Source of the DNA: a virus
DNA length: 20,756 nucleotides
IMG/VR virus record: IMGVR_UViG_3300017727_000224
Span: 1-20,756 of that record
Strand: one strand, 5' to 3'
Position numbers and translations under genes: made by a program. This document shows, in pieces, positions 7,276 to 20,274 of the stretch. A model generated the notes under the pieces. The model was not told where the DNA came from. It saw only the letters and a program-made list of their open reading frames with translations, and searched no databases. How positions within the stretch are numbered: the first letter of the stretch is position 1; each line of letters starts with the position of its first letter.

Positions 7276-7588
7276 ACAAAAGGCTAAGTCTACTGTAGCT
7301 ATAGCTGAAGCCACAGCGAAAGCGAAGGTGATGGAAACTGCCGCTACCCACGACAGTAAGTGGGAGCTTCTCATGGCACAGGGTACACAGGGTTCGTGGA
7401 AAGACGAACTCGTAACTATTGTGGTGCTTATCCCATGCATACTGGTCTTCATACCTGGCATGGAGGAAGTAGTTAAGTCTGGGTTTGACCGCCTCAATGA
7501 ATTACCAGACTGGTACACGAACTTGCTTATGATTGTGTGTACAGCCGCTGTGGGCATACGTGGATTAGACAAGTGGAGAAAGAAATGA
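7208..7588 (+). CDS. Phage holin, three-helix GTA type
   Basis: A 126-residue protein that forms the inner-membrane lesion releasing or activating the endolysin encoded next. It starts MLTALIGPLANLAGTFL (hydrophobic helix), continues with an Ala/Lys/Glu-rich helix (about 18-48), a polar linker with GSWKDE, then a helix LVTIVVLIPCILVFIPGM, and after DWYTN a third helix LLMIVCTAAVGIRGL with the basic end DKWRKK. The order matches the 3TM holin family found in gene transfer agents and many alphaproteobacterial phages, in particular the WKDE...IP...F..L..LP.WY pattern. A GGAGAG ribosome-binding site lies just upstream of the ATG. The stop overlaps the endolysin start as ATGA, giving a coupled lysis cassette. 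Confidence 0.88.
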   Translation: MLTALIGPLANLAGTFLQTKVDKQKAKSTVAIAEATAKAKVMETAATHDSKWELLMAQGTQGSWKDELVTIVVLIPCILVFIPGMEEVVKSGFDRLNELPDWYTNLLMIVCTAAVGIRGLDKWRKK

Positions 7589-8043
7589 CATACGCATTAT
7601 CAGCTAAAAGTTTAGACAAGTTAGTAGGCGTAGACCAACGCCTGGTTGATGTAGTCTGCCGAGCTATTGAGCTTACCGACGTAGACTTTGGAGTCATCTG
7701 CGGCATGAGAACCGAAGAAGAGCAGAAGGAACTGTTCGACAAAGGCGCGTCGCAAACTATGAAGTCAAAGCATCTTGAGGGTAAAGCTGTAGATTTGCTG
7801 GCCTACGTAGGTGGCAGGCATACATGGGAACTCAACGTCTACGATGAGGTAGCTGACGCTATTAAGAAGGCGGCAAAAGAACTTGGTGTCAAGATTAGAT
7901 GGGGTGCGGCGTGGCACGTACACGACATTGCTGAGTTTGACGGGACGATGGAATGGGCCATGACAAGTTATATTGATCTAAGGAGATCAGAAGGTAAACG
8001 TCCTTTTATTGATGCTCCTCACTTTGAAATATGGGGTGACTAA
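7585..8043 (+). CDS. M15-family peptidase endolysin
   Basis: A 152-residue zinc peptidase predicted to cut peptidoglycan peptide crosslinks (D-Ala-D-Ala carboxypeptidase / L-Ala-D-Glu endopeptidase type) during lysis. The family signature is visible: GMRTEEEQKELFDKGAS (40-56), the zinc motif SKHLEGKAVDL with His63 and Asp70, the RWGAAW segment, and the final HFE with zinc-ligand His146. The length is that of a single-domain M15 enzyme without a cell-wall-binding domain. No signal peptide is seen, so it should need the holin for access to the periplasm. The ATG at 7585 overlaps the holin stop (ATGA); a longer open frame begins at 7537, but its extra 16 residues lie inside the holin gene and lack family similarity. 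Confidence 0.92.
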   Translation: MTYALSAKSLDKLVGVDQRLVDVVCRAIELTDVDFGVICGMRTEEEQKELFDKGASQTMKSKHLEGKAVDLLAYVGGRHTWELNVYDEVADAIKKAAKELGVKIRWGAAWHVHDIAEFDGTMEWAMTSYIDLRRSEGKRPFIDAPHFEIWGD

Positions 8044-8189
8044 TGTACGCAAAAACAATTCTAGGTATCAGGTCAGCGGGAAACGTCAAGAAGTCTGAGC
8101 GTCCTACTCACTATGCAAAGGGTGGTAGGAAAGGGAACATGATGTCAGAGCCATGCCCTTGTGTACTTAAAAAGAAGGGGAAGAAGTAG
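8043..8189 (+). CDS. Tiny Lys/Gly-rich basic protein
   Basis: A 48-residue protein whose ATG shares a base with the endolysin stop (taATG). It is strongly basic, with a KKSER segment, YAKGGRKGN, a CPC pair and the tail KKKGKK. No domain is recognised. The neighbouring frames are also very small basic proteins joined by one-base overlaps, so this looks like a string of coupled small genes expressed late. A DNA- or virion-associated role is plausible but inferred. Confidence 0.6.
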   Translation: MYAKTILGIRSAGNVKKSERPTHYAKGGRKGNMMSEPCPCVLKKKGKK

Positions 8190-8359
8190 TGGCCCGCAAA
8201 GCTCCCAAGAAGCCAGCGAAGAAAGACGCTTGCTACGCGAAGGTCAAGTCTCGTTACAAGGTTTGGCCAAGTGCTTATGCTTCAGGTGCTTTGGTAAAGT
8301 GCCGCAAGGTTGGTGCAAAGAACTGGGGCAACAGTAAAAAGAGTGGGAAGAAAAAGTAA
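8189..8359 (+). CDS. Small Lys/Cys-rich basic protein of the type common in marine phages
   Basis: A 56-residue protein starting at a GTG that overlaps the previous stop by one base (taGTG). The segment CYAKVKSRYKVWPSAYASG followed by ALVKCRKVGAKNWG resembles a short protein I know from marine and cyanobacterial phages, found as a stand-alone gene or at the end of structural proteins. It is flanked by Lys/Ala-rich ends (ARKAPKKPAKK and KKSGKKK). The two cysteines may be paired or bind a metal. Its role is unknown; the strong positive charge and late position suggest binding of packaged DNA or of another virion component, which is inference. Confidence 0.72.
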   Translation: MARKAPKKPAKKDACYAKVKSRYKVWPSAYASGALVKCRKVGAKNWGNSKKSGKKK

Positions 8360-8520
8360 TGGACGCTAAAACGAAGCAAGAGCTTTACAGAGAAGCGGCA
8401 AAAAGTTTTGGAAACCCTAGCGAAAGACTTAGCAACAACAGGTCTATGCACATAGCTCGTTACGTTAGTAGGTCTCCAAGTCAGAAGAGAACAACAACCC
8501 CTGTGAAAAAGAAAAATTAG
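8359..8520 (+). CDS. Small basic protein ending at an amber codon
   Basis: A 53-residue protein. The ATG overlaps the previous stop by one base (taATG). It has an N-terminal amphipathic helix (KTKQELYREAAKSF), a Ser/Arg-rich middle and a basic end (TTPVKKKN). No family is recognised. Its TAG stop at 8518-8520 is followed directly, in the same frame, by 155 further sense codons that encode a recognisable membrane protein lacking any standard start codon. This gene may therefore sometimes be read through to a 209-residue fusion, or may simply couple translation to the next gene. Confidence 0.6.
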   Translation: MDAKTKQELYREAAKSFGNPSERLSNNRSMHIARYVSRSPSQKRTTTPVKKKN

Positions 8521-8988
8521 ATTGAGGCTAATGTTATCGAACCGATCAGTACAGCTATTGCCGCTTTCGGAGCGATAAAGGCGGGCGTTGCCGCAGGCAA
8601 AGAAGTCACGTCTTTAGCAAAAGAAATAGGTACGCTTTGGGGTTCTATTGATGAGATAAACAAAGAACACAACAAGAAGAAATCCTCTGTGTTCAGGACT
8701 GTAGAAGAGGAGGCTCTGACTACGTTCATGGACAAGAAGAAAGCTCAGGACTTAGAAGACAACCTGAGACAAATAATAATATACTCTCGTGGTCCAAACG
8801 CATGGCAAGAGTTGTTGAAGTTAAGAGTGGACATTAGAAAGAAAAGGTTGCAAGAGGCAAACGAGGCAAAGAAAAGAAGAGACAACATGATAGAGGTTGT
8901 CCTTATCTCTGGGCTTTTGATCCTCGGTCTTTTCGGCCTAGCTTTTCTGGCTTACTTCTTATTAGGGTTGAAAAATGGCTTCAAATAG
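8521..8988 (+). CDS. Phage membrane-anchored coiled-coil protein with non-standard start (ATT)
   Basis: An open frame of 156 codons including stop, in the same frame as the preceding small gene. The first standard start in frame is GTG at 8686, but the upstream codons encode a coherent sequence (EANVIEPISTAIAAFGAIKAG, then KEIGTLWGSIDEINKEH) that matches my memory of phage homologues beginning MEAN-like. The ATT at 8521 therefore stands where Met is expected, directly after the TAG stop of the previous gene. The N-terminal helix is Ala/Gly-rich and mildly hydrophobic. A charged helical domain follows with EEEALTTFMDKKKAQ and YSRGPNAWQELLKLR, then a basic stretch and one strong C-terminal membrane helix (about 125-150). 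It may act in virion-membrane contact or lysis. The function is unknown. Confidence 0.72.
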   Translation: MEANVIEPISTAIAAFGAIKAGVAAGKEVTSLAKEIGTLWGSIDEINKEHNKKKSSVFRTVEEEALTTFMDKKKAQDLEDNLRQIIIYSRGPNAWQELLKLRVDIRKKRLQEANEAKKRRDNMIEVVLISGLLILGLFGLAFLAYFLLGLKNGFK

Positions 8989-9190
8989 TGACGGTTTAAG
9001 GAAGTGGTTTAGTCGCAACGGTGGCAAAGGCTGGATTGATTGCAAGACAGGTAAGGCTTGTGGTCGGCAGAAGGGTGAGAAACGCAAGGGATACCCAGCG
9101 TGTCGCCCTACTAAGGCTCAATGCAATTCATCTTCTAAGAAAAAGACAGGGCCATCTAGGATAAGCTGGAAGAAATCCACCAAGAAGTGA
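8975..9190 (+). CDS. Small Lys/Cys-rich basic protein (GW-DCKTGK-CGR type)
   Basis: A 71-residue, highly basic protein. GLRKWFSRNGGKGWIDCKTG, then KACGRQKGEKRKGYPACRPTK form a compact Cys-containing motif that I recognise from small proteins of marine phages and of some large-virus genomes, always without known function. Four cysteines (two pairs) could bind zinc or form disulfides. A long basic tail follows (KKKTGPSRISWKKSTKK). The ATG overlaps the membrane-protein gene by 14 nt, and AGGG lies about 8 nt upstream. It is the last rightward late gene, and its 3' end overlaps the 3' end of the opposing dNMP kinase gene by 35 nt. Confidence 0.78.
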   Translation: MASNSDGLRKWFSRNGGKGWIDCKTGKACGRQKGEKRKGYPACRPTKAQCNSSSKKKTGPSRISWKKSTKK

Positions 9191-19263: not shown

Positions 19264-20274
19264 TCAGATATCACCCAATTGTTTGCGAGATGACATGACA
19301 AAATCCTTTGCCCTGCTTTGTATATACCCACGATAACGCATTGTCATTGATACGTCGGCATGACCCAGCAAATATTGCAGATCGCCCAAGTCCGCACCAG
19401 CCTTGGCTGTTAGGTATGCGAACGTATGTCGTGCATCATGCACTCTGATGGGTGGTATTGTGCAATATGCACACGCTCTCTTCAGTGCTTTGTTAAGTGT
19501 GGCTGATGCAGAACGATTGTCGTTCCAGATGTCCAGCCCCCTAGTCGGAAAGCTTCTGACCATATCTGTTACGTCGTCAGACATCGGAACATCACGGGTC
19601 AAAGTCTTTTGTTTCATCTTGCTAACACGACGTATCTTCACAACGCCACCACGAAAGCAAGACTCATCAAGCCTCAGCATCTCACCAAGCCTTGCACCAG
19701 TATCAAACAGTAGAAGAAAGTGAGGATAGTATTTGGGTTCGTTAGTCTTGAAGAAGCGCAACACATCTAACACTTGCTCCTCATCCAGATGGACATCTCT
19801 AGCGTCATCCACTTGGGGGATAGGTATCTTTGGGCATCGCCATCCGTATGTCTCCTCGGCATACTTGAGTATCGCTCGTAGTTGGTTGAGATAACGCTTG
19901 ATACTGTTGGCCTGTAGACCCTGCATAGCCTCGAACACGAACGCCTGTATGCGTTGGGTGGTTACGTCGTTCAAGGATACCTTGCTCCAATAACTAGACA
20001 GCTTGTCTATCTTGCTGTCCATGTCACGAGACATCCTGCCTTCCAACTGTTTCCAACGTCGGTAGTCTTTGATTGCCTCACCGACAGTCTTGTTGGTGCT
20101 GTTGTACAGAGTGTTGGTTAGTATCTTGCTCTCCATATCAACCCGCATTTGTTCAGCGATCTGCTTACCATTCGGATGGTTAGTAGGAACGCGGGTGCTT
20201 TTACGCACCCTGTTCCCTGACAAAGACCCGACGATATGCCACACGCCACCATTCTTTTCTATCTTCAGCATCAT
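19264..20274 (-). CDS. int: Tyrosine recombinase integrase
   Basis: A 336-residue phage integrase that would recombine attP with a host attB site. The N-terminal 55 residues are beta-rich and basic (arm-binding type), residues 62-145 form the SAM-like core-binding helices (KTVGEAIKDYRRWKQLEG onward), and the catalytic domain holds TGARLGEML (Arg195), the KMKQK strand (Lys222/224), RVHDARHTFA (His279, Arg282), LLGHADVSMTMRY (His305) and the nucleophile Tyr314. All catalytic residues are present, so it appears intact. Two ATGs compete: 20274, and 20271 with better spacing to AGGGAG. The gene starts seven bases after the upstream small gene's stop, and its 3' end abuts an A/T-tract region that may be attP. 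Confidence 0.93.
   Translation of the reverse strand: MMLKIEKNGGVWHIVGSLSGNRVRKSTRVPTNHPNGKQIAEQMRVDMESKILTNTLYNSTNKTVGEAIKDYRRWKQLEGRMSRDMDSKIDKLSSYWSKVSLNDVTTQRIQAFVFEAMQGLQANSIKRYLNQLRAILKYAEETYGWRCPKIPIPQVDDARDVHLDEEQVLDVLRFFKTNEPKYYPHFLLLFDTGARLGEMLRLDESCFRGGVVKIRRVSKMKQKTLTRDVPMSDDVTDMVRSFPTRGLDIWNDNRSASATLNKALKRACAYCTIPPIRVHDARHTFAYLTAKAGADLGDLQYLLGHADVSMTMRYRGYIQSRAKDFVMSSRKQLGDI

Follow-up and report, generated by a model that had tools for sequence, protein, structure and literature searches.

A conserved phage gene with a probable AUC start codon, in a family where putative AUC and AUU starts recur

Non-canonical start codons in bacteria

Gene-calling programs generally recognise ATG, GTG and TTG and no other starts, so that AUC-type starts are invisible to them and the proteins concerned are annotated too short. 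In S. aureus, for example, the infC gene starts at AUA. The same gene starts at ATT in E. coli and at ATC in Streptomyces, where the start of sigR is GTC, and in both infC and sigR a non-canonical start that is repressed by IF3 sets protein ratios (PMC5472188). IF3 disfavours weak third-base pairs between codon and initiator tRNA (PMC10158994). Other described cases are cvfC1 (AUU) and ccpN (AUA) of S. aureus, which have an extended Shine-Dalgarno sequence (SD) (PMC13009471), and pncA/bbe22 of B. burgdorferi, with an AUU start (PMC13398362). The papers found treat single bacterial genes, and the literature searched contained no phage case of such starts.

The phage and its start-less frame

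The DNA analysed here (the window) is a virus record of 20,756 nucleotides from a marine phage, which its gene content shows to be a tailed one. It carries phage genes for an endolysin, a deoxynucleotide kinase, a Cas4-like exonuclease, a methyltransferase, a Sak4-like protein, a primase-polymerase, an endonuclease and an integrase. Roseobacter phage CRP-810 is the only cultured phage matched by the primase-polymerase over most of its length, and also the only one matched by the largest protein of the window, at about 30-36% identity. The integrase is a tyrosine integrase encoded on the minus strand (19267-20274), and the phage may therefore be temperate. A candidate attachment site at ATCGAACC, which resembles a reversed tRNA T-loop, was rejected, as its flanks form no T-stem by inspection and a tRNA was not found. 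No Rfam elements were detected in the window. The features around the frame of interest are:

7537..8043, + strand: endolysin-like gene (M15 peptidase / phrog_465), in the same module as the AUC gene
8359..8520, + strand: upstream 53-codon gene for a small basic protein, from ATG 8359 to TAG 8518-8520, conserved in L002-L007
8524..8527, + strand: Shine-Dalgarno sequence GAGG, 8 nt before ATC; GAGG-N8-ATC in all group A contigs
8536..8538, + strand: proposed start codon AUC, aligned with the ATG/GTG of relatives
8536..8988, + strand: proposed AUC gene, encoding a 150-residue helical protein with a C-terminal membrane segment (phrog_32327 family)
8975..9190, + strand: next gene, whose ATG start overlaps the 3' end of the AUC gene

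For the endolysin-like frame, the called start is a GTG without a visible SD and the frame overlaps the preceding gene, so that its true start may be elsewhere; between it and the AUC gene (8044-8520) lie three very small lysine-rich genes.

Beyond the TAG at 8518-8520 the same frame stays open for 155 codons, up to the TAG at 8986-8988, with no in-frame ATG, GTG, TTG or CTG ahead of the GTG at 8689-8691. A first-pass annotation of this DNA had pointed to a conserved frame lacking a start, and this holds: the protein is clearly conserved and the same structure is found in seven other IMG/VR contigs. Its coordinates need correction, as it placed the first GTG at 8686 and gave the start-less stretch as 165 nt instead of 168 nt. 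The sequencing error that it had suggested checking for is ruled out, because the seven contigs come from separate metagenomes. A search of the whole contig for start-less frames was swamped by shadow frames, and only 8521-8988 stood out, being flagged by 7/7 homologues; its first canonical codon lies 56 codons from the beginning of the frame.

Comparison with relatives places the start at AUC 8536

The close relatives of the window (group A, L001-L007; 68-100% identity) come from independent metagenomes in IMG/VR and all lack a canonical start. From codon 8536 onward, group A is invariant as ATC-GAA-CCN-ATY-AGT, whereas the five codons after the stop (8521-8535) drift. The nearest outgroups (L021-L023) read ATG-GAG-CCA at the exact column of ATC 8536. 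Among 81 subfamily rows, this start column holds ATG in 50, ATC in 12 and GTG in 9, and the rest have ATG, GTG or TTG one codon upstream. A second group (group B, L109-L120), about 50% identical to group A, has ATC-GAA-CCA-ATT-AGT at the same column. Together the two groups, which come from independent metagenomes, supply 11 distinct sequences (5 and 6) with ATC there. This codon is kept across 68% protein identity within group A and about 50% between the groups. Within group A (window, L002, L003, L005, L006) it is invariant, while 8/10 other shared isoleucine codons have changed synonymously. In the window, ATC thus occupies the ATG/GTG column and canonical codons are absent before codon 52. 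The 20 nt from ATC onward in L006 (3016-3035) and L114 (3501-3520) are identical bar one base, although the proteins share only about 50% identity and the 30 nt upstream are unrelated; this could reflect shared ancestry, recombination or a constraint on the initiation region.

Purifying selection and homology agree that coding begins at the AUC codon. When the window is compared with L006, pN/pS rises from 0.11 (codons 2-50) through 0.27 (codons 51-110) to 0.43 (tail), so that the stretch ahead of GTG 8689 is the most constrained part of the protein and more than a frame left open by chance. In a structure model (pLDDT 83), the first helix begins at residue 3 counted from AUC.

An SD lies 8 nt upstream of ATC in both groups, as GAGG in group A, where it is conserved at this working distance, and as AAGGAG in group B. 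The window SD is only moderate, and its predicted pairing with the anti-SD is -5.6 kcal/mol. The leader of the window group shows no significant structure (folding z -0.5 and -0.95). Group B carries a 12-bp perfect inverted repeat with a 6-nt loop (folding z -4.2 to -4.9), whose 3' arm holds the SD and ends directly before ATC:

L114:3471-3503: group B hairpin, also present in L115-L120 and L109-L113

This hairpin should hide the SD. One of its G-C pairs is replaced by A-U in L117, which, with six sequences, is weak support. In IMG/VR the hairpin is found in seven contigs only, all of group B.

Protein family and lysis neighbourhood

All 42 aligned members match phrog_32327, a phage family of unknown function, and the window protein does so with an E value of 1.5e-13 over residues 3-145 of 150. 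The literature searched gave no description of rare-start members of this family. The window protein has no Pfam match and no Pfam or PHROG holin match, no Pfam family is common to most members, and a fold search hit uncharacterised phage proteins alone, with no relative in the PDB. The structure model shows four helices, and the C-terminal membrane segment, which is preceded by basic residues, falls within the last of them; this suggests a tail-anchored cytoplasmic domain. Among cellular genomes, the family is present in 1/369.

In several lineages, the neighbours of the gene are endolysins and holin-like genes, which makes a role in lysis control plausible. An M15 peptidase is encoded near the gene in the window, a phage lysozyme in L265 and L273, and a peptidase is the neighbour in Limnohabitans phage DC31; a neighbour in L258 matches GTA_holin_3TM below threshold. 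Group B also carries an integrase, and its AUC gene lies close to this integrase instead of lysis genes.

Recurrence of AUC and AUU starts in the family

In the family tree the two AUC groups lie apart, each among ATG/GTG relatives; a single origin (monophyly) of these two main groups is compatible with the AU test (p 0.195). Extra members were found by a loose pattern scan and then the family HMM, and the lineages found by pattern were selected for the ATH-GAY-CCN motif plus an SD (GAGG), so that their SD is present by construction. Distant members without a canonical start have AUC in L269, L338/L326 and L310, and AUU in L320, L265, L273/L293, L323 and L258, where L338 and L326, as well as L273 and L293, are distinct sequences. 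Each of these outlying lineages is represented by one or two contigs, and most were picked up by the GAGG + ATH pattern. At L265:593 (reverse strand) and L323:4108, ATT-GAC-CC comes directly after a TAA, and GGAGAGGG lies seven nt ahead of it. These two contigs are divergent and share an upstream structural gene ending in CYFTPGEG(F/L); they probably mark a larger AUU lineage in other phages.

A first family-wide tally gave ATG 141, GTG 23, TTG 10, ATC 14 and ATT 5. Canonical starts are used, for instance, in the cultured roseophages CRP-1 and CRP-4. Placed on a quick tree, the AUH label requires about 7 changes, 4 of them forced by well-supported branches, numbers that are approximate because of long branches. 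As a control, 61 other gene families were built from the same loci. A start could be assigned in about 603 of their members, none of them a convincing AUH case. Thirteen apparent cases look like artefacts of the models (antisense cluster, truncated model, upstream canonical start). One of them, a candidate ATC start of another gene in L071, proved an artefact on detailed check, a GTG with an SD being present. In the AUC-gene family, AUH starts amount to 16/160 in the control test, or 11/131 when only members found by homology are counted; for the latter, the difference from the controls has a Fisher p of 4e-9, a value based on numbers of sequences instead of independent origins. Two entries start-less by annotation, MW202462 and MW202484, were rejected, as an in-frame GTG lies just upstream. 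Their deposited starts (L354:798 and L355:801, respectively) are 7-9 codons late, and the upstream GTG is the homologous start.

Alternative readings of the locus

The first-pass annotation had proposed that translation begins as in infC, at the ATT at 8521, right after the TAG. AUU starts are known, and the window, L001-L003 and L005 all carry ATT at this position. This codon is, however, CTT in L006/L007, codons 8521-8535 vary (N/S/Y, V/I) without alignment to other relatives, no SD is found at a proper distance from it, and group B shares nothing upstream of ATC. The methionine of the homologues, expected at codon 8521, aligns instead with 8536. Initiation at 8521 is thus very unlikely, and what survives of the proposal is the AUU/AUC class of start, moved to ATC 8536, 15 nt inside the frame. 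The GTG at 8689, as the first canonical codon, is the pick of annotation software, and the upstream part would then be untranslated. Such a start is highly improbable, given that the codon is GCT in L006, that codons 2-50 are the most strongly conserved and that the relatives are full length instead of beginning at this position. Stop-codon read-through or a frameshift, which would join the protein to the small basic one encoded upstream (209 residues in the earlier proposal), would fit the shared frame and the adjacent stop of the window. The stop is nevertheless TAG or TAA among relatives, a 1-nt deletion in the leader of L002 puts the upstream ORF in a different frame, rare-start members show the upstream gene at frame offsets 0, 1 and 2, and in relatives the protein has a gene of its own, with an ATG/GTG start. 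The conserved in-frame stop between two ORFs that marks programmed read-through is therefore lacking, a fusion cannot be the shared mechanism and is extremely unlikely, and 8359-8520 is, judging from these frames, a separate gene that is not fused to the AUC gene.

It could also be argued that an ATG-to-ATC change has crippled the gene, since AUC initiation is normally weak. A pseudogene has very little probability here, and this option of the first-pass annotation was abandoned, because all 11 distinct sequences from the two groups have an intact frame under purifying selection, which is strong in several of them, and ATC is retained over the divergence between the groups. Hardly any weight can be given to an altered initiation system of host or phage, in which the initiator tRNA would read AUC as an ordinary start: no supporting evidence was found, tRNA genes are absent from the window and the related contigs scanned, the neighbouring window genes start with ATG/GTG, and no other window frame was flagged by most of its homologues. 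A further alternative concerns the purpose of the start and not its position, and overlaps with the explanation preferred here. On this view AUC initiation is real and neutral: so little of the protein is required that a weak start does no harm, and regulation plays no part. The family often uses GTG and TTG too (23/193 and 10/193), and sister groups show several start codons, which makes this a serious possibility, if short of the probable one. Against it stand the absence of such starts in the 61 other families of the same phages, their long retention in two groups, and the group B hairpin, which also covers the SD and suggests double down-regulation.

Proposed mechanism and its meaning

The frame at 8536-8988 is very probably a normal, working phage gene translated from AUC 8536, and the best reading of the sequence comparisons is that this initiation is genuine and conserved, with low and probably IF3-sensitive expression. 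The proposed model is that the GAGG at 8524-8527 would hold the 30S subunit, probably with assistance from ribosomes finishing the upstream gene; as the stop of this gene lies 15 nt before AUC, coupled re-initiation (PMC2268962) may contribute. The initiator fMet-tRNA would pair with AUC despite the third-base mismatch, and the product would be (f)Met-Glu-Pro-Ile-Ser..., with the same N-terminus as in AUG-using relatives. The N-terminal peptide expected from AUC 8536 is (M)EPISTAIAAFGAIK, whereas IEANVIEPISTAIAAFGAIK would contradict this start. As IF3 rejects such codon pairs, output would be low and would rise when IF3 is scarce.

The recurring AUC/AUU starts suggest that phages use bad start codons that keep this protein scarce. 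A more far-reaching proposal, which can be held only tentatively and is rather doubtful in its full form, is that this lysis-module-linked family repeatedly (possibly seven times) evolved AUC/AUU under selection, as an IF3-sensitive brake on a membrane protein whose role is to time lysis or to monitor the host translation machinery, with the group B hairpin hiding the SD as a second lock. A phage family returning repeatedly to AUC/AUU would offer a natural system for studying IF3 discrimination and would show that, in phages, selection acts on start-codon strength itself. Comparing the start column with that of relatives is a simple recipe for finding further cases.

Comparison with known systems

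This class of phenomenon is already known in bacteria; its recurrence within a single phage family is new, within the literature searched. The family of the AUC gene is itself phrog_32327. The gene resembles infC in having an AUH start with an SD, and its expression would be expected to drop as IF3 rises. infC, however, encodes IF3 and autoregulates, whereas the window protein, without a Pfam match, belongs to phrog_32327 only, and a phage membrane-protein gene could only sense IF3, not set it. sigR of Streptomyces (PMC5472188) is similar in that a rare start keeps one product of an operon scarcer than its neighbour and was missed by annotation; it differs in its GTC codon, in encoding a cellular regulator and in being experimentally proven. 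With cvfC1, ccpN and pncA/bbe22, the gene shares a non-canonical start that is conserved or biochemically shown, and database copies that can be cut to a later codon. Those genes are bacterial, are proven by ribosome profiling or biochemistry, and occur in single lineages, in contrast to the starts described here, which recur within one family.
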